60,034 nucleotides of DNA from Clostridia bacterium. GTDB taxonomy: Bacteria > Bacillota > Clostridia > Christensenellales > Aristaeellaceae. The notes under the pieces are model-generated. The model saw only the letters and a list, made by a program, of their open reading frames with translations. It searched no databases and was not told the origin of the DNA. Where the stretch lies: assembly GCA_017552615.1 (NCBI GenBank), contig JAFZPI010000015.1, positions 1 to 60,034 on the forward strand, written 5' to 3'. The position numbers were made by a program, and so were the translations under genes. This document shows, one piece after another, positions 37,770 to 59,896 of this stretch; position 1 is the stretch's first letter, and each line of letters opens with the position of its first letter.

Positions 37770-37813
37770 CCCCTCACCCGCTTCGCGGGAGCTCCCCATT
37801 GCGATGGGGAGCC
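37770..37813. repeat. REP-like palindromic unit, left of the IS
   Basis: CCCCTCA, a CCCGC/GCGGG hairpin, then GCTCCCC/GGGGAGC hairpin. Reverse complement of the unit type at 47119-47170. The IS630 element begins three bases after it. Confidence 0.7.
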
Positions 37814-37829
37814 TAATACTAATCTCAAT

Positions 37830-38372
37830 TTAAATTAGCGATAAAATCCATTGACGACCAGTAATGCTCCGAATGATATCCGGAGTCAAGGAGATAATTG
37901 TTTGACACAGGCGATCGATTACGTCATTGAGTGTATGAAAGACCTCATTTCGAAAGCCTCGGGTACGGATTTCACGCCAGATCTGCTCAATTGGATTCAT
38001 CTCAGGTGTGTACGGTGGAATATGGAAAAGGTGAATGTTATCTGGTACTACAAGGGTATTTGATTTATGCCATGAGGCTCCATCACAAACAAGCAGGATC
38101 TCATCATCCAGGTATTGGTCTGAAAGCCCTTTGAGAAAAACATTCATGCACGCCGTATTGCACCAAGGCATAACCAGAAAGAAGTCATCACCGGAACAAG
38201 GGTCGACAGCTCCAAAGACATAACGGTATTCACGAATATGATGGCAGGGAACACTGGGCCTGTTCCCTGCTGTCCAGCAGTACTTTGGTGTGTTAATCCT
38301 CCCGAAACCAGCTTCATCCTGAAACATAATCCTGACATGTTTGTTCAGGCTGACTAACTGGATTTCTTTCAA
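37830..38372 (-). CDS. IS630 transposase, DDE catalytic part (orfB)
   Basis: Carries the catalytic triad of the DDE superfamily: Asp in FQDEAGFGR, Asp in LLVCDGASWHKS and Glu in PEMNPIEQIWREIR. It has no good start of its own (first codon TTG) and lies in the -1 frame to orfA. After slippage at T7 (38384-38390; A7 on the coding strand) orfA continues as KIKTRLKEIQ into this frame, giving a fused protein of roughly 340 residues, the usual IS630 length. Confidence 0.88.
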   Translation of the reverse strand: MKEIQLVSLNKHVRIMFQDEAGFGRINTPKYCWTAGNRPSVPCHHIREYRYVFGAVDPCSGDDFFLVMPWCNTACMNVFLKGLSDQYLDDEILLVCDGASWHKSNTLVVPDNIHLFHIPPYTPEMNPIEQIWREIRTRGFRNEVFHTLNDVIDRLCQTIISLTPDIIRSITGRQWILSLI

Positions 38373-38857
38373 ACGGGTTTTAATTTTTTTGAGGCGTTGA
38401 TCTCTTCATCACTCGCCTTCTTTGGATGCCTGGAACGTGGCTTGATTTTGCGCCATCCGTGACGCGCCAGAAGCATGTAGATGTATCCCCGGCCGGTGTC
38501 CCTGCCCAGCTTTTCATCAAATGCCGCTTTGATTCCCTTGACTGTGATGATTTGCCCTTCCGCCGCAGATGCATCGAAACTATCCAGGATCGCTTGTTCT
38601 TCCTCGTATGTCATGTTCCGGTGATTGCCTTCATATTTGATCCTGATATATTCTTTCAATCCGTCACGCTTATACTCACTGACCAGATGGCTCACACGAC
38701 CGCTGGACAAGTCAAGCTTCTTGGCAATCTCTGGGTTCTTCATCCCCTCGTAACGCAACATCAGTGCTTTGAGCTTTTTCGATATATTCTTATCGTTTGT
38801 TTTCTTTTCTTCTGCCTTTATCTCCTGATACTCTTCTGCCGTAATTCGGTATGCCAT
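38369..38857 (-). CDS. IS630 transposase, DNA-binding part (orfA)
   Basis: Helix-turn-helix protein: LKALMLRYEGMKNPEIAKKL followed by a second winged region near 100-150 (GYIYMLLARHGWRKIKPRSRHP). It binds the inverted repeats. The ATG at 38857 is six bases after GAGGTG. Unshifted translation stops at KLKPV; -1 slippage on AAAAAAA just before the stop makes the full transposase. Confidence 0.88.
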   Translation of the reverse strand: MAYRITAEEYQEIKAEEKKTNDKNISKKLKALMLRYEGMKNPEIAKKLDLSSGRVSHLVSEYKRDGLKEYIRIKYEGNHRNMTYEEEQAILDSFDASAAEGQIITVKGIKAAFDEKLGRDTGRGYIYMLLARHGWRKIKPRSRHPKKASDEEINASKKLKPV

Positions 38858-38941
38858 CTTCATCACCTCGTGGCTATTATACCACAAAATGTTTGATTTG
38901 GCTAGTTTTATTTGAGATTAGTATAAGGAAGTGCGTGCAAA

Positions 38942-38991
38942 GCCCCTGCCTCCCCACCGCAGTGGGGAGGTGGCCCGCAGGCCAGAAGGGT
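38942..38991. repeat. REP-like palindromic unit, right of the IS
   Basis: CCTCCCC/GGGGAGG hairpin then GGCCCGC-AGGCC, similar in plan to the right arm of the element at 30932. With the unit at 37770 it probably formed one larger inverted element before the IS landed between the arms. Confidence 0.6.
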
Positions 38992-39076
38992 CCTCTTGTA
39001 GGCGGCAAGCTCAAGTTTTGATCATTCACCCACAAAAAAGTCAAAATATTCCATGTCAACTTTGCATCATTTTTCA

Positions 39077-39106
39077 TTGACAATAGGGGAACGAATGTTC
39101 TATATC
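39077..39106 (+). promoter_or_regulatory. SOS-box promoter of the phage-derived cassette
   Basis: TTGACA (39077-39082) and TATATC (39101-39106) with an 18-base spacer. The spacer holds GAACGAATGTTC (39089-39100), an exact GAACN4GTTC LexA/DinR box of Gram-positive bacteria. LexA bound here would block polymerase, so the cassette should be induced by DNA damage. Confidence 0.75.
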
Positions 39107-39152
39107 TCGCTCACCGGCCGGGAGAAGGCCGGATCATGAGAGGAGGAACGCC

Positions 39153-39623
39153 ATGAACGAAGACCCATGCCAATCGGAAGCCCTGCCCGGGATTTCACCC
39201 CCGGCAAACCCTGCACCTGCCCCGGCTGAACCCACGCAGGAGGTTGCCCTCCTGCGGGAAGCCCTGCAGAAAGCGCGGGAGGAAAGCGAAGCCCTGCGCA
39301 CGCGAAGCCTTGCCGCGCGGACCCTGCGGGATAGCCTGGCTGCGGCGGGTGCGCTACCGGAAGCGGTGGAACTGCTGGCGGGGGCTGTGCCCGGTGAGCG
39401 CCTGCGGCTGACCCCGGAAGGTGCGCTTGCGGGCAGCGAAAGCCTATTAGCCGGGCTGCGCAGCCGCTACGGTTTCCTGTTCCGCCCGAAATCTGTGCTG
39501 CCCACCCCAGCCCTGACCCCGCCCCGGGACGGCGCGCCGCTGAGCCAGGCAGCCCTGCGGAACATGACCGCGGAGGAGATCAATAAGCGCTGGTCAGAAG
39601 TCCGCGAAGCCCTGAAACCTTGA
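39153..39623 (+). CDS. Phage scaffold-like protein
   Basis: 156 aa. A Pro/Ala-rich N-terminus, a coiled-coil stretch at about 28-75 (EVALLREALQKAREESEALRTR), then YGFLFRPKSV and a C-terminal LSQAALRNMTAEEINKRWSEV, the pattern of small phage scaffolding proteins that precede P22-like coat genes. Such proteins organise the capsid and leave. AGAGGAGG precedes the ATG. First gene after the SOS promoter. Confidence 0.65.
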   Translation: MNEDPCQSEALPGISPPANPAPAPAEPTQEVALLREALQKAREESEALRTRSLAARTLRDSLAAAGALPEAVELLAGAVPGERLRLTPEGALAGSESLLAGLRSRYGFLFRPKSVLPTPALTPPRDGAPLSQAALRNMTAEEINKRWSEVREALKP

Positions 39624-39664
39624 ACCTCAACGAACCGACACCATGAAAGGAAAGAAGAAAGAAA

Positions 39665-40465
39665 ATGTCTGTCACTTCATTCATCCCCAAGGTCTGGAGC
39701 GCACGCCTCCAGGAGAACCTGCACAAGCAGCTGGTCTTCGGCGCCCTGTGCAACCGCAACTATGAGGGCGACATCAGCCGCTACGGCGACACAGTGCACA
39801 TCAACACCCTCACCGACGTCACGATCCGCCCCTACACCCGCGGCGCGGAACTCGCCGCACCGGAGGCGCTCTCCGGCACCGACCAGACGCTGACCATCGA
39901 CCACAGCGTGTACTGCCACTTCTGCCTGAATGACTTGGATGCTGCCCAGGCCCGGGCCGATGTCCTCGAAGCCGCCATGCGCGGCGCCGCTCGCCGCCTC
40001 GCGGAGGACACCGAGAGCTACCTGCTCGGGGTCATCGAGGACGGCGCGGGTATCACCGGCACACTCGACCCCACCGGCGACATCTTTGCGCAGATCGTGG
40101 GGATCAAGACCGCCATGGACCTGCGCAGCGTCCCACGCACAGGTCGTGCCCTGGTGATCCCGCCCACGCTCGAAGGCGCGCTGATCCAGGACAGCCGCTT
40201 TGTGACAGCGGGCGGCGCGATCGCCGGTTCCGCCCTGGCGGACGGTGTCGTCGCGCGCGCCGCGGGCTTTGACATTTACATCAGCAACGACCTGACCGAC
40301 GAGGTTGTTGCCCTGACCGAAGATGGCGTGACCTTCGCTCAGCAGATCGCCGAGATGGAGGCCTACCGCCCGGAGAAGGCTTTTGCGGACGCGGTCAAGG
40401 CCCTGTCCCTGTGCGGCGCCAAGGTCGTTGTGCCCGACTGCGTGGCTGTGTACAGCATCTCCTGA
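39665..40465 (+). CDS. P22-type major capsid protein
   Basis: 266 aa, short for the P22 coat family. The N-terminus (FIPKVWSARLQENLHKQLVFGALCNRNYEG), DTVHINTLTDVTIRPYTRG near 40 and LTIDHSVYCHFCLNDLDAAQA near 80 are typical, as is the late FDIYISNDL. It keeps the HK97-like core pattern. Loss of the P22 insertion domain and the small size suggest either a small particle or a slimmed variant. AAAGGAAAG precedes the ATG. Confidence 0.85.
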   Translation: MSVTSFIPKVWSARLQENLHKQLVFGALCNRNYEGDISRYGDTVHINTLTDVTIRPYTRGAELAAPEALSGTDQTLTIDHSVYCHFCLNDLDAAQARADVLEAAMRGAARRLAEDTESYLLGVIEDGAGITGTLDPTGDIFAQIVGIKTAMDLRSVPRTGRALVIPPTLEGALIQDSRFVTAGGAIAGSALADGVVARAAGFDIYISNDLTDEVVALTEDGVTFAQQIAEMEAYRPEKAFADAVKALSLCGAKVVVPDCVAVYSIS

Positions 40466-40478
40466 GGAGGCTGACGCC

Positions 40479-40931
40479 ATGGCCATCCGTGTTCCCGATG
40501 TGATGCGGGAAGTCCGCAACACGTTTCCCGTCCACTGCCTGGAGGGCACCTGGTCCGTCATCGGCGGCTGCCTGACCCCTTGCGACCTCCTGCTCGAAGG
40601 CGACTGGATCGCCATCGCGGCGGGCGCCCGCGCGGACGGCATCCGCCAGGTCGGTCCCGGCGGGCAGCTGGACGACGGCACCCTCCCCGACGAGACCTTC
40701 ACCGGCGAGGTCTGGCTGCTGGACCCGCCGGAAGGCTTCCTCGCCCTTTGCGGGGAGATCGCGGACTGGGCGGAGCGCAACACCCTCGACGCAATCGAGA
40801 GCAAGCGCTTCGGCGATTTCAGCCAGCGCCGCGCCGTCGGCCGCAACGGCCTGCCGCCGGACTGGCCGACCATGTTCCGCTACCGCCTGATGCCCTATCG
40901 CAAGATGTTCGGGGAGGTGGGCAAGAAGTGA
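40479..40931 (+). CDS. Head-tail connector-like protein
   Basis: 150 aa. MREVRNTFPVHCLEGTWSVIGG, EVWLLDPPEGFLALCGEIADW and FRYRLMPYRKMFGEVGKK recall a protein that follows coat genes in Clostridia prophages and is taken as a connector or completion protein. The ATG follows TGAGGAGG, overlapping the coat gene's end. GTGA overlap with the next gene. Family assignment is from memory of context. Confidence 0.6.
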   Translation: MAIRVPDVMREVRNTFPVHCLEGTWSVIGGCLTPCDLLLEGDWIAIAAGARADGIRQVGPGGQLDDGTLPDETFTGEVWLLDPPEGFLALCGEIADWAERNTLDAIESKRFGDFSQRRAVGRNGLPPDWPTMFRYRLMPYRKMFGEVGKK

Positions 40932-41080
40932 GCGAACAGTTCTCCGAATCCCGCAATGCCGGTTTTGAAAGTTCAGAAGAAGAAACGGAACAGACTCCTT
41001 CTGAGCCCTCCCCGGAAGCCATTTTGGAAGCCCTGACCCAGGCGGAGCGCCTTCGCCGCTTGGGATACGGGTGGCAGTGA
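40928..41080 (+). CDS. 50-residue protein of the phage cassette
   Basis: Starts GTG, overlapping the previous stop (GTGA), with GGGGAGGTG upstream. Acidic, Ser/Glu-rich middle (ESSEEETEQTPSEPSPEA) and a helical end LEALTQAERLRRLGYGW. It occupies the place where a complete phage would have tail tube, chaperone and tape-measure genes. It may be a linker or a remnant. Confidence 0.55.
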   Translation: MSEQFSESRNAGFESSEEETEQTPSEPSPEAILEALTQAERLRRLGYGWQ

Positions 41081-41093
41081 AAGGAGACCACCC

Positions 41094-41873
41094 ATGCAGA
41101 CACCCTGGTTTCTCTGGAAAGGAACGGACAGCCGCATGCAAGGCGTGGTCGTTGAGCAATACCCGCCTATCACACGGGCCGGAACGCGGAATCCGCGACT
41201 GACCATCCCGGGCCGAAGTGGCTCTCTGGCGCTTGGCGGTCTTCCCGTCTATGCCGATATGCGCTTGACCCTGAAAGTCCTGCTGAAGCCCGGCACGCGT
41301 CCCGCGGACGTCAACGGATGGCTCAGCGGCAGCGGCCTTCTGGTACTGGGCTCCGAACCGGATCGCTCGCTGGAGGCGCGACTTGCCGCCCCTCTTCAGT
41401 TCACGGTCCTGCCCGACGGCTGGTACGGCGGCTATCTCCGCTTTGACTGCCACCCGCTGAAACACAAGTATCCGGAAGAATCTGATATCGCGGTCACACC
41501 CGCCCAAGTTTCAGATTCCACATGGACGGGCATATCCAATCCGGGCGATGTCCCCGCCCGTCCCCGCTACACTCTCCAGGGCAGCGGCTGTCTCACCCTG
41601 ACCTGGCACCTGCCGGTTCGAGATAACCCGCCCCAATTCACGGTGGATCTCCGCGATACCCCGTTTGCAAACAACGGCGGCGCGGTTTTCGACAGCGAGA
41701 GCATGACGGTCACAACACTGGACGGCAGCGCCAGTCTTTCTTCCCTTTCCCGTCTGGAGAACGGCGAAGTGGAAGACTTCGGATTGCCGTTGGGTATCAC
41801 CCGACTCTCCGCTGTTTCGGAGGGCGGCATCCTTGAGGGTCTTACTGTGACCCCGCGCTGGAGGTGGCTGTGA
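41094..41873 (+). CDS. Distal tail (Dit) protein
   Basis: 259 aa. The N-terminal half (VEQYPPITRAGTRNPRLTIPGRSGSL..., then KVLLKPGTRPADVNGWLSG and LRFDCHPLKHKY) is the Dit ring domain of siphophage tails; the C-terminal half is a galectin-like beta domain. It would form the ring between tail tube and tip. GAAAGGAG precedes the ATG. No tail tube or tape-measure gene exists in the cassette. Confidence 0.82.
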   Translation: MQTPWFLWKGTDSRMQGVVVEQYPPITRAGTRNPRLTIPGRSGSLALGGLPVYADMRLTLKVLLKPGTRPADVNGWLSGSGLLVLGSEPDRSLEARLAAPLQFTVLPDGWYGGYLRFDCHPLKHKYPEESDIAVTPAQVSDSTWTGISNPGDVPARPRYTLQGSGCLTLTWHLPVRDNPPQFTVDLRDTPFANNGGAVFDSESMTVTTLDGSASLSSLSRLENGEVEDFGLPLGITRLSAVSEGGILEGLTVTPRWRWL

Positions 41874-43465
41874 TGATCTGTGTCTATGATCCGTTTGAGA
41901 CGGTCGGAGCTTCCCTCGGGGAAGGTGTTCTTTCCCCTATCTCCTGCACGGTGCGGGAAGAAGCCGGTGGCCTCTACGCCCTGACGCTTGTTCTTCCGTT
42001 AACGGATGACGGTGTCTGGCAATCCGTGCGTCCTTTCGCCCTGCTGCGGGTGCCTGTGCCCCGGTGCGAGACACCGGCCGTCAACACGGCAGACAACCTG
42101 ATCGTGGACGCGGGCTGGCAGGTGTGGCAGGTCACCCGGGATCGGGCGGGGCTGTACGCTTCGACCGCCTATATCCGCTACACCGCCTTTGTCAACGGCA
42201 ATCTGTATGTGCGGGGTGACCGGGTGCGGCACAACAGCCGCAACTGGGAGTGCATCACCGCAGCGACCCTCCTGACTCCGTCCGCCGAGAACAGCGCTTC
42301 CTGGCGCGACCTGGGCACAGGAGATCCCGTGCCGAGAGCCTATCTCCCCGCCGGGGAACAGTTCGCGGTTTCAAACGCGGGAGAAACCTGGCTGGAGGTC
42401 AAACGGGCCGACGGCACCCGCGGCTATGTGCGCCGAGCCGACTGTACCTACCTCTACACCCCCGACGCCAATGCCCAGCTCCCCGGGCCGGTCGCGTCCC
42501 GCACCCTGACGGACCAGCTCTTCCGGGTAACGGACGTGCAGATCGACAGCACGACCGGCCTGCTCACCGCCCACGCCCTGCATCTCAGTTATGACGCCAG
42601 CGCGATCCTGCTCGACCGCGTCACCCTGAACCATACGGATCTGCCCACCGCCGTGGCCGCCCTGCGCTCCGCAGCCCTCCCGGACGGCAGCGCCGGGGCC
42701 GCGTCGGTCTTCTGCCAGGGAACAGGCTGCGAGGTCTCCGGCACCTTCACCCGGATGACCCTGACAGCGGCCCTGCTGGACCCTGAGATCGGCCTGGTCC
42801 GGCAAGCCCGGGCAAGACTGGTGCGCGACAATCGTGACTTCTTTCTCCTGCGGAACGAAGAGACTGACAGCGGCCTGCGCCTCACCCACGGCGTCAACCT
42901 GCGTGGCGTCCGCTGGTCCCGGGACTGTGCCGACGTGACCACGCGCCTGCTCCCCGTCGCCCGCGCTGCCGACGGCAGCGACCTGCTCCTCCCGGAGCGC
43001 TTTGTAGACAGTCCGCTGCTCGACCGCTACCCCTTCCCCGTCACCCGTCCGCTGCGGGTCAACGCCCGTGTCGGCCGGGACAACCTGACCGAGGCCAATG
43101 TCTATGCCCGTATGCGAGCCGAAGCGCAGGCACGCCTCGCCATCGGCATCGACCTGCCCCGGACCACGCTGACGGTTGACTTCCTCCTGTTGGGAGACAC
43201 GGAAGAATACAAAGCCTACCGCGATCTGGAACGGTTGACACTCTACGACGTCGTCGAAATCCACCATCCGGATTTGGGTTTGTCTGTCCGCGCTCAGGTC
43301 AAAAGCTATGAATGGGACGCCGTTGCAAAGAGATACACCCGCATCACCCTGGGTGACGTTTTCGGAACAGCTGACCACACTGTCTATGGCTACAGCCTGG
43401 CCGACGGCACCGTCAGCGTACGGAAACTCTCACCCGAAGCAATCGATGAAATCCGGAACGGATAA
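41873..43465 (+). CDS. Tail-associated tip protein (Tal type)
   Basis: 530 aa. N-terminal gp27-like domain (ICVYDPFETVGASLGEG..., ALTLVLPLTDDGVW) and a late segment LTLYDVVEIHHPDLGLSVRAQVKSYEWD typical of phage tail endopeptidase proteins. Between them lie a carbohydrate-binding-like insert near 100-130 (YVRGDRVRHNSRNWECITA) and an SH3-like segment near 160-195. No catalytic residues of a lysin are evident, so it is probably a cell-wall contact tip. The ATG at 41873 overlaps the Dit stop by one base and has GGAGG eight bases upstream. Confidence 0.8.
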   Translation: MICVYDPFETVGASLGEGVLSPISCTVREEAGGLYALTLVLPLTDDGVWQSVRPFALLRVPVPRCETPAVNTADNLIVDAGWQVWQVTRDRAGLYASTAYIRYTAFVNGNLYVRGDRVRHNSRNWECITAATLLTPSAENSASWRDLGTGDPVPRAYLPAGEQFAVSNAGETWLEVKRADGTRGYVRRADCTYLYTPDANAQLPGPVASRTLTDQLFRVTDVQIDSTTGLLTAHALHLSYDASAILLDRVTLNHTDLPTAVAALRSAALPDGSAGAASVFCQGTGCEVSGTFTRMTLTAALLDPEIGLVRQARARLVRDNRDFFLLRNEETDSGLRLTHGVNLRGVRWSRDCADVTTRLLPVARAADGSDLLLPERFVDSPLLDRYPFPVTRPLRVNARVGRDNLTEANVYARMRAEAQARLAIGIDLPRTTLTVDFLLLGDTEEYKAYRDLERLTLYDVVEIHHPDLGLSVRAQVKSYEWDAVAKRYTRITLGDVFGTADHTVYGYSLADGTVSVRKLSPEAIDEIRNG

Positions 43466-43499
43466 TATTAATGAAGAAAAAGGAAGGAGATGAAGTCCC

Positions 43500-44165
43500 A
43501 TCATTCAAAAAAGCGATCTGATTGCCCTGTTCCAAACGATGTACAAAGAAAAGTGGAAATACCTCTGGGGACATGCCGAGCGCGGCTGTGTGGACTGCTC
43601 CGGGGCCTTTGTATGGGCGTACCGGCAGTTGGGAGAAACCATCTACCACGGCTCCAACACGATCGCGCGGCAGCATGTGCAGGAACTGCTCCCGCTCTCT
43701 GAAGCCAAACCGGGAATGGCCGCCTTCAAGATCCGCAAACCCGGCGCGAGAGGTTACGCGATTCCGAAGAGGTTTCAGGCAGGCGGAAGCGCGTATAACG
43801 GCGACCTGAACGACTATTACCACATCGGCCTGGTGGACGAAGATGGCAAGCACGTCCTCAATGCCCAGAGTGAAAAGGCCGGCTTCACCCGCACGCTAAT
43901 TTCGAAATGGCACGCCGTTGGCGCTCTGTCCTCTGTCCAATACGAAGAAATCCCCATGCGGATCATGACCGTCACCAGCGAGAACGGCCTGCCAGTACGA
44001 GTCCGGAAGGCTCCGTCAAAGTCTGCGGCCATCATCGCCAAACTGGCCGTCGGAACGCCTGTCATTGCGGGTGAAGAGCGGAATGGCTGGCGGGAGATCG
44101 TCTTCGGGGACGAGAGCGGATATATGATGAGCCGGTGCCTGCGGAACGCAGGTGAAACAGAATGA
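43500..44165 (+). CDS. NlpC/P60 endolysin with SH3 domain, apparent ATC start
   Basis: 221 aa if begun at ATC 43500. NlpC/P60 fold with catalytic Cys33 in GCVDCSGAFVWAY and His in YYHIGLV; a bacterial SH3 domain ends the protein (about 160-215, LPVRVRKAPSKSAAII). It should cut peptidoglycan peptides. AAGGAG sits ten bases before ATC, and IQKSDLIALFQTMYKEKW fits the family's usual beginning, while the first ATG (43539) lacks a ribosome site and lies inside the domain. So either an AUC start or a start-codon mutation. Confidence 0.8.
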   Translation: MIQKSDLIALFQTMYKEKWKYLWGHAERGCVDCSGAFVWAYRQLGETIYHGSNTIARQHVQELLPLSEAKPGMAAFKIRKPGARGYAIPKRFQAGGSAYNGDLNDYYHIGLVDEDGKHVLNAQSEKAGFTRTLISKWHAVGALSSVQYEEIPMRIMTVTSENGLPVRVRKAPSKSAAIIAKLAVGTPVIAGEERNGWREIVFGDESGYMMSRCLRNAGETE

Positions 44166-44395
44166 AGCGAGGAAACACGATGAAGCGAAAGACAAAACGG
44201 AACTGGATCGCTTGGGCCCGAGCCGCCGGGCTGCGGGCGGTCCGCACCTTTGCCGAAGCCATGCTTGCCTATATCGGCACCGGAGCCCTGGTGCTCGGGG
44301 ATGTCTGCTGGTCCGGAGCTCTGTCTGCCGGCGCATTGGGCGCTGTCAGCGCCCTGCTGCTGGCCCTTGCGGGGCTCCCGGAAGCCGATTCCTGA
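44162..44395 (+). CDS. Phage r1t-like holin
   Basis: 77 aa. Basic N-terminus, then two membrane helices (about 26-48 and 53-70) with AEAMLAYIGTGALVLGDVCW and a final LLLALAGLPE, the pattern of r1t-type holins. It would release the endolysin across the membrane. The ATG overlaps the endolysin stop (ATGA); a second start at 44180 with GAGGAA upstream is equally good. Last gene of the cassette. Confidence 0.85.
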   Translation: MKRGNTMKRKTKRNWIAWARAAGLRAVRTFAEAMLAYIGTGALVLGDVCWSGALSAGALGAVSALLLALAGLPEADS

Positions 44396-59599: not shown

Positions 59600-59896
59600 A
59601 TGAGGCAGAAGAATCCCAAGTACATGAAGGAGATCGAGGCCTTTGTGGATCATTATTATTCCCAGCATCATAAGTCTCCCAGCTGCCGGGAAATTGCTGA
59701 GAACACTACCCTCCAGCGCAGTGCCGTCCAACGGTATCTGACAGCCATGAACGATCAGGGAATGATCCAGTACGACGGTCGAACCATTCGTACCAGGAAG
59801 ATTCAGGGAAACACTCCCCGAATGACCTCTGTCGGCATCATTGGCTCGATTAACTGCGGCCCGCTGATGATGGAAGAAGAATCCGTGGAAGGGTAA
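59600..59896 (+). CDS. LexA-like repressor cut off after the cleavage region
   Basis: 98 aa. The N-terminal winged helix (YMKEIEAFVDHYYSQHHKSP, SCREIAENTTLQRSAVQRYL, NDQGMIQYDGRTIRT) is that of a LexA-family regulator. The linker holds INCGPLM where LexA has its Ala-Gly cleavage site. The frame stops ten codons later, so the Ser/Lys peptidase and dimerisation domain is missing. It could bind its operator but not be cleaved, or be a dead fragment. GGAGGGG precedes the ATG. The genome presumably has a full lexA elsewhere. Confidence 0.8.
   Translation: MRQKNPKYMKEIEAFVDHYYSQHHKSPSCREIAENTTLQRSAVQRYLTAMNDQGMIQYDGRTIRTRKIQGNTPRMTSVGIIGSINCGPLMMEEESVEG

Follow-up and report, generated by a model that had tools for sequence, protein, structure and literature searches.

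We present here an analysis of an eight-gene phage-like cassette in a stretch of 60,034 nucleotides (C29:1-60034, below called the window) from the draft genome G000 (2.03 Mb, 49 contigs, 72.8% complete) of a ruminant-gut bacterium. On the whole, the cassette probably encodes the head, tail tip and lysis functions of a phage-derived particle system that has been domesticated and is inherited vertically; a gene transfer agent (GTA) is its likeliest identity. We regard the system as a dispersed viriform, neither a satellite nor a recent split, because its parts, found as open frames at two loci, co-occur in related genomes, diverge together with GyrA, are under purifying selection in close relatives and have LexA-type boxes at both loci. 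G, C and L numbers below denote genomes, contigs and loci.

Two loci in one genome

The cassette comprises eight adjacent open frames on the same strand (39153-44395, 97% coding) behind a promoter:

39077 to 39106, + strand: promoter, with -35 TTGACA (39077-39082), LexA-type box GAACGAATGTTC (39089-39100) and -10-like TATATC (39101-39106); 18-base spacer
39153 to 39623, + strand: scaffold protein, 156 amino acids, a homologue of the scaffold proteins encoded in full clusters; weak when taken alone (PF06810, E 0.09)
39665 to 40465, + strand: major capsid (coat) protein, P22/HK97-type, 266 amino acids (PF11651, E 5.5e-9; phrog_267, E 4e-53)
40479 to 40931, + strand: connector-like protein, 150 amino acids, following the coat in relatives (27-row alignment A3)
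40928 to 41080, + strand: small protein p50, 50 amino acids, GTG start, compared with relatives by eye
41094 to 41873, + strand: distal tail protein Dit, 259 amino acids (phrog_33, E 3e-10), with orthologues in L163, L164 and L166
41864 to 43465 (start 41864 or 41870), + strand: Tal, a prophage endopeptidase-type tail protein (PF06605, E 7e-7, just under the cut-off; phrog_1067, E 5e-39)
43539 to 44165, + strand: NlpC/P60 hydrolase with SH3 domain (PF00877, E 0.0015, under the cut-off; PF08239, E 1e-6, over it)
44162 to 44395, + strand: holin, r1t type, 77 amino acids (PF16945, E 5e-8, over the cut-off; phrog_443, E 7e-10)

The original prediction, made from the window alone, had given these identities to the genes; the start that it set for the finding, 39077, falls on the -35 hexamer of the promoter. 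By family they hold for the coat (whose profile A1 also matches PDB entry 8e16, E 2e-47), Dit, Tal, the SH3/NlpC protein and the holin. The scaffold, which has no significant match of its own in Pfam or PHROG, is recognized by homology, while the connector, with no Pfam or PHROG match and no convincing PDB relative, is named from its position alone. By eye, a p50-like small frame is also seen directly 5' of Dit in G154, G200 and G167 (L166, L164 and L163). The tight packing of intact, overlapping genes is confirmed except for the start codon of NlpC: the frames of connector and p50 overlap by GTGA (40928-40931), those of Dit and Tal at about 41870-41873, and those of NlpC and holin by ATGA (44162-44165). 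In the interval 43465-43560, the NlpC frame is open 5' of an internal ATG without a usual start codon, and an ATG lies behind a ribosome-binding-like stretch, but in a different frame from NlpC. The composition claimed to be host-like is not so, the G+C content being 0.638 for the cassette and 0.574 for the whole window.

The cassette had been thought unable to package itself, for want of terminase and portal. Both are indeed absent from the window locus, but the premise is wrong at the level of the genome: G000 has one copy each of portal (profile phrog_64) and terminase (phrog_38), both on contig C37, where terL and portal are full-length frames. On this contig F9 and F7 are read one way, and F6, terS, terL and then portal the other way, with recR and gyrA beyond portal. 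From scans of relatives' proteins, F9 is of the M78 peptidase type (ImmA-like) and F7 is a helix-turn-helix (HTH) repressor; F6, by eye, resembles ArpU/RinA (a putative activator), and the comparison with ImmR/ImmA is likewise by eye.

These packaging genes bear directly on the proposal that the cassette is a phage satellite, borrowing packaging or tail parts of other phages. The small size of the window locus and its missing modules would suit a satellite, and it was one of the options of the original prediction, but we rejected it as very improbable, since packaging genes of the same lineage are in the same genome and each genome has one coat copy with host-like divergence (see below). A satellite would have its own integrase; the genes scanned or assigned at the two G000 loci include neither integrase nor replication genes, and those of the L104 cluster include no integrase, no dedicated integrase search having been run. 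In L104 all genes from F9 to the second holin are assigned, none of them to integration or replication. Nor is there the contiguous genome with integration and replication genes of an autonomous prophage, the G000 genes lying on two contigs.

Distribution and gene order in relatives

Overall, a coat match is found in 45 of 200 genomes of the family sample. Among them, 18 (including G000) have at least 44% identity and belong to four genera, and the other 27 matches are distant and mostly partial. A search of 12 genomes of the genus itself found a single coat gene in 10 and terL in those same 10, always on a different contig from the coat; G074 (89% complete) and G198 (66%) have neither. In the nine genus genomes whose gene order was read, with from 0.9-1.3 kb (G167) to ~10 kb of sequence available upstream of the structural genes, terL is not beside the latter; the G200 contig starts at the coat. 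The portal gene adjoins terL in seven of the 10 (G000, G138, G154, G167, G178, G188 and G200); in G044 and G119 it is close to the structural genes, and G099, whose contig ends after terL, gave no portal match.

This genus-wide separation weighs against an ordinary prophage recently split by rearrangement, or a binning error, which we consider exceedingly improbable. An IS630-like element (37812-38928), left of the cassette promoter and ending 225 bases 5' of the scaffold gene, could have favored such a split, but the coat is apart from terL in all nine genomes whose gene order was read, the G200 contig starting at the coat; the recent split was rejected on this separation. The matching trees described below are not expected from a contaminant. 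The original prediction had held that missing genes found elsewhere, as a recent split, would point to prophage debris; they are elsewhere, but the separation is genus-wide.

Outside the genus and in small IMG/VR contigs, several loci are a single cluster of 9-13 kb in the order F9, F7, F6, terS, terL, portal, scaffold, coat, connector, htj1, htj2, usually tube, Dit, Tal, hydrolase and holin. The genes assigned in these clusters include none for integration, replication or a tape measure. The lack of a tape measure noted for the window locus is thus correct without being special to it, and since the full clusters whose gene order was read show none, any tails are expected to be very short. In six of 35 genome loci (L175, L177, L179, L180, L181 and L186), mnmE lies 0.4-3.4 kb past the second holin. 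A divergent 16S 5' end is on the cluster's other side in L104 (= L175) and L180, and also flanks the genus packaging locus L140; it is present in three of eight loci in one set and in none of six in a second. The G000 packaging locus, near recR and gyrA, is not at this recurrent site. L016, filed as viral, is probably chromosomal, because it carries mnmE and its TerL is 98% identical to that of L179. In another genus, three genomes (G131, G064 and G194) have Dit, Tal and the hydrolase on a different contig from coat and terL, which is a second, independent joint.

As possible whole-system relatives, the Ruminococcaceae loci L191-L196 were tried and dropped, since 16 profiles gave the coat only in four of the six; besides the coat, L193 adds a weak scaffold match and L196 a weak F6 match. 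In L195 (1489-10834, a Candidatus Fournierella contig) the coat relative is accompanied by a replication initiator and a different TerL and portal.

Vertical inheritance and selection

In the 19 genomes taken, the coat is full length in all, TerL in 18 (the G030 match being partial), and portal is found in 18, incomplete in G002. Their distances correlate with those of GyrA at 0.81 for TerL, 0.76 for portal and 0.69 for coat (16-17 genomes, permutation p 0.0005), and within the genus at 0.62, 0.58 and 0.49, respectively. The trees place the two genera on opposite sides of a branch, with support of 94/89 for coat, 84/91 for TerL and 100/99 for GyrA, the first two being middling. G000 pairs with G099 in the TerL and GyrA trees, not in the coat tree, where the node stays open, and the placement of G148 differs between trees. 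Second terL copies of G044, G119 and G154 were excluded from distances and trees. Another phage cluster, distinct from this one and equipped with a TerL and portal of its own, is present on G154 C21 and G119 C30 (L139 and L141).

Coat, TerL and portal are under purifying selection in close pairs. In seven such pairs, the ratio of nonsynonymous to synonymous substitution rates (dN/dS, by NG86) is 0.04-0.14 for coat, 0.10-0.19 for TerL and 0.10-0.23 for portal, compared with 0.06-0.15 for GyrA. In two of the pairs the synonymous rates (dS) of coat, TerL and portal are close to that of GyrA: 0.21, 0.22 and 0.18 between G131 and G064, where GyrA has 0.24, and 0.43, 0.48 and 0.40 between G138 and G188, where GyrA has 0.32. 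The scaffold, joining and Dit genes evolve faster than these three, and L016 and L179 form a mosaic pair, with TerL and portal 98% identical, coat 77% and Dit 70%. Gene order and dN/dS in relatives were the check proposed with the original prediction. Its suggestion of a domesticated particle that lysis releases finds support in the single coat copy of each of 10 among the 12 genus genomes, in co-divergence, in purifying selection and in the LexA-type boxes described next, the pair of G000 and G154, discussed later, standing apart.

LexA-type boxes at both loci

The window has two LexA-type boxes where 1.06 are expected, so the mere presence of a box within 60 kb is not unusual; its position in the promoter is. 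G099 shows the same layout of promoter and box upstream of its scaffold gene. On the packaging side of G000, CGAACGTTTGTTCG is found upstream of F6 (C37:57699-57712), just downstream of a TTGACA...TATGAT pair; in its 13-base form the word matches 10 times in the genome, twice at this single palindromic site, and the reversed control matches 25 times. With one region counted per genome, the box is present with at most one mismatch in all 16 regions upstream of F6 (shuffle mean 0.8, maximum 4), and perfect in nine of them; upstream of the scaffold gene it is perfect in five of nine genus structural loci (shuffle mean 0.06, maximum 2). The 16 come from the 19 genomes, with G200 not included and F6 not found in the G002 and G030 loci, and for G119 the region counted belongs to the F6 copy at C72, not beside its terL; the nine leave out G200, whose contig starts at the coat. 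When promoters were compared pairwise for a common 18-base word, with no control, 12-15 of 18 positions matched. The box was first noticed by eye in these sequences and then counted, so that the counts concern a motif picked post hoc.

Separately from the choice of motif, and with no shuffle control, the lexA promoters of relatives were inspected: a lexA match above the cut-off was obtained in 12 of the 14 genomes examined (G000 and G188 gave none), and all 12 promoters have a similar box, with one mismatch in eight and two in four. From these promoter sequences, both loci are probably SOS-controlled. A sub-cut-off LexA-type HTH match is seen near the window end (59630-59791), and in G119 lexA is on the same contig as the coat (C89), ~3.9 kb upstream of it.

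Proposed working and its weighing

The system would then work as follows. DNA damage would inactivate LexA, bound until then at the boxes, and the M78-type protease may inactivate the HTH repressor by cleavage; both loci would then be transcribed, perhaps with F6 as activator. Scaffold and coat would build a small head, which portal and terminase would fill with cellular DNA, Dit and Tal would form a minimal tip, and holin and the NlpC hydrolase would lyse the cell, releasing particles for delivery to others. On paper, the predicted parts suffice for head assembly, packaging and lysis.

An SOS-induced killing particle like PBSX would use the same genes and be released by lysis in the same way, harming neighbours instead of delivering DNA. 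The LexA-type boxes and lysis genes would fit it equally, as would Tal in the cassette and, in relatives, a fibre-like gene of beta-helix type, and the paper of Borodovich et al. (PMC12946183) leaves the same question open for the GTA of Faecalibacterium, FpGTA. We consider it rather unlikely, the assigned genes including neither a sheath nor a tape measure. That close relatives keep terminase, portal and coat under purifying selection has little weight against it, because PBSX is also said to package DNA (PMC12946183).

Several observations weigh against a working GTA in this species. In the gap between connector and Dit, both G000 and G154 have lost the head-closure, tail-completion and tube genes (htj1, htj2 and tube), with one small frame left. 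The tube profile has no match in the G000 assembly; it matches in six of the 12 genus genomes, that of G154 lying within another phage cluster, but the tube gene is also missing from some unsplit loci. On C37 two LRR_5 (BspA-type) genes on the opposite strand part terL from portal (L134, 9525-12580), the larger with a G+C content of 0.377 in surroundings of 0.67-0.68. (In L097 a gene of the same blast family precedes portal.) NlpC has no ATG, GTG or TTG at the expected start, its listed frame starting at the internal ATG. The sister genome G074 (GyrA 90%) lacks coat and terL at 89% completeness, and between G000 and G154 dN/dS is 0.26-0.39 where GyrA has 0.14, at high dS.

All these would be expected if the system were slowly decaying in this species, as a remnant passed on vertically, while still working in other members of the genus. 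We think this unlikely, however, since the remaining genes of both loci are open, coat, TerL and portal are full length, and both promoters have a LexA-type box. The emptied gap could mean a tailless capsule or beginning decay.

Against the GTA reading more generally, one of the seven dN/dS pairs belongs to this genus, the other six being drawn from four genomes of another. Coat and portal distances within the genus are not significantly correlated (0.24, p 0.14). In the six other-genus pairs, coat dS is at most that of GyrA, far below it in five, and TerL dS is above GyrA dS in five; these differences suggest some recombination, so that the gene histories are not identical. As for regulation, a perfect box is missing at the structural loci of G188, G138, G044 and G119 (four of nine), the tail loci L282-L284, which stand apart in the three other-genus genomes, have none, the F6 profile has no match in the G002 and G030 loci, and G000's own lexA was not found in its 72.8% complete genome, which gave only a sub-cut-off HTH match. 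Finally, the reading is drawn from gene sequences, from which the particle, its packaged DNA and the transfer are predicted.

A fuller history can be offered tentatively. An old SOS-governed GTA may once have been one cluster near mnmE, and may have broken at least twice, between portal and scaffold in one genus and between tube and Dit in part of another. Its pieces keep open frames, and the displaced structural piece has its own LexA-type box in five of nine loci; in this species and G154, the joining genes would have been discarded, leaving possibly a nearly tailless, lysis-released DNA capsule.

Surroundings of the cassette

As predicted, the flanking genes are not of phage type: of 10 scanned, nine have a Pfam match, none to a phage family. 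The IS630-like element consists of HTH and DDE_3 frames with a G+C content of 0.44 and imperfect terminal inverted repeats. Next to it, at 38933-38992, is a ~60-base repeat with similar copies at 11 other sites of the genome on nine other contigs. Synteny matches of the window flanks are scattered across contigs of six relatives, and the position of the locus within the genus is thus uninformative.

Comparison with known systems

GTAs of the RcGTA type have a tape-measure gene and a different regulation, and PBSX is larger and contractile-tailed. Few GTAs are known outside Alphaproteobacteria. The present lineage, a candidate from sequence data in Clostridia of the ruminant gut, has a chromosomal site that recurs, a co-divergence that can be measured and an apparent host SOS switch at separated loci. 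With it one can ask how a tamed phage with scattered genes stays functionally whole, and whether gene exchange in the rumen and hindgut is driven by DNA damage.

According to PMC9662315, a GTA is defined by six features: proteins derived from tailed phages; mostly random host DNA as content; genes fully endogenised, often at several loci; a genome too large for the head; mostly vertical inheritance with host co-diversification; and DNA delivery to other cells. Of these, the first is seen in Coat, Dit, Tal and holin here and in the relatives' TerL, portal and scaffold, which match phage families; the third in two loci among host genes in G000 and a site near mnmE or 16S in relatives; and the fifth in the distance correlations and trees against GyrA, with some single-gene discordance. 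As to head size, it is observed only that the genes sit on different contigs. With three of the six features present, the system probably works like a GTA.

Among the titles and abstract openings listed in searches for GTAs of Clostridia, such a system is described only by Borodovich et al. 2026 (PMC12946183), whose FpGTA is said to be the first GTA from the human gut microbiome and the second from Gram-positive bacteria. It is encoded in two chromosomal operons, one with terS, terL, portal, scaffold and capsid, the other with baseplate, fibre, holin and endolysin; no identifiable tails and no replication genes are reported, and tails are thought to be very short. By description, FpGTA is close in kind, sharing Gram-positive gut Clostridia as hosts and genes dispersed over two loci, and the three other-genus genomes (G131, G064 and G194) are split at a similar joint. 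Unlike it, the joint here is between portal and scaffold in most genus genomes, LexA-type boxes are at both loci in five, and the present system is predicted from its genes.

The other systems are likewise compared by description. BhGTA (VSH-1) of Brachyspira, whose genome is described as likely dispersed over multiple loci (PMC9662315), is alike in dispersal, unlike in its 16.3 kb structural cluster and spirochaete host. RcGTA-type GTAs of Alphaproteobacteria are also endogenised, mostly vertical and multi-locus (PMC9662315), in another host phylum. PBSX of Bacillus subtilis, also mentioned in PMC12946183, is likewise a phage-like particle of a Gram-positive host.

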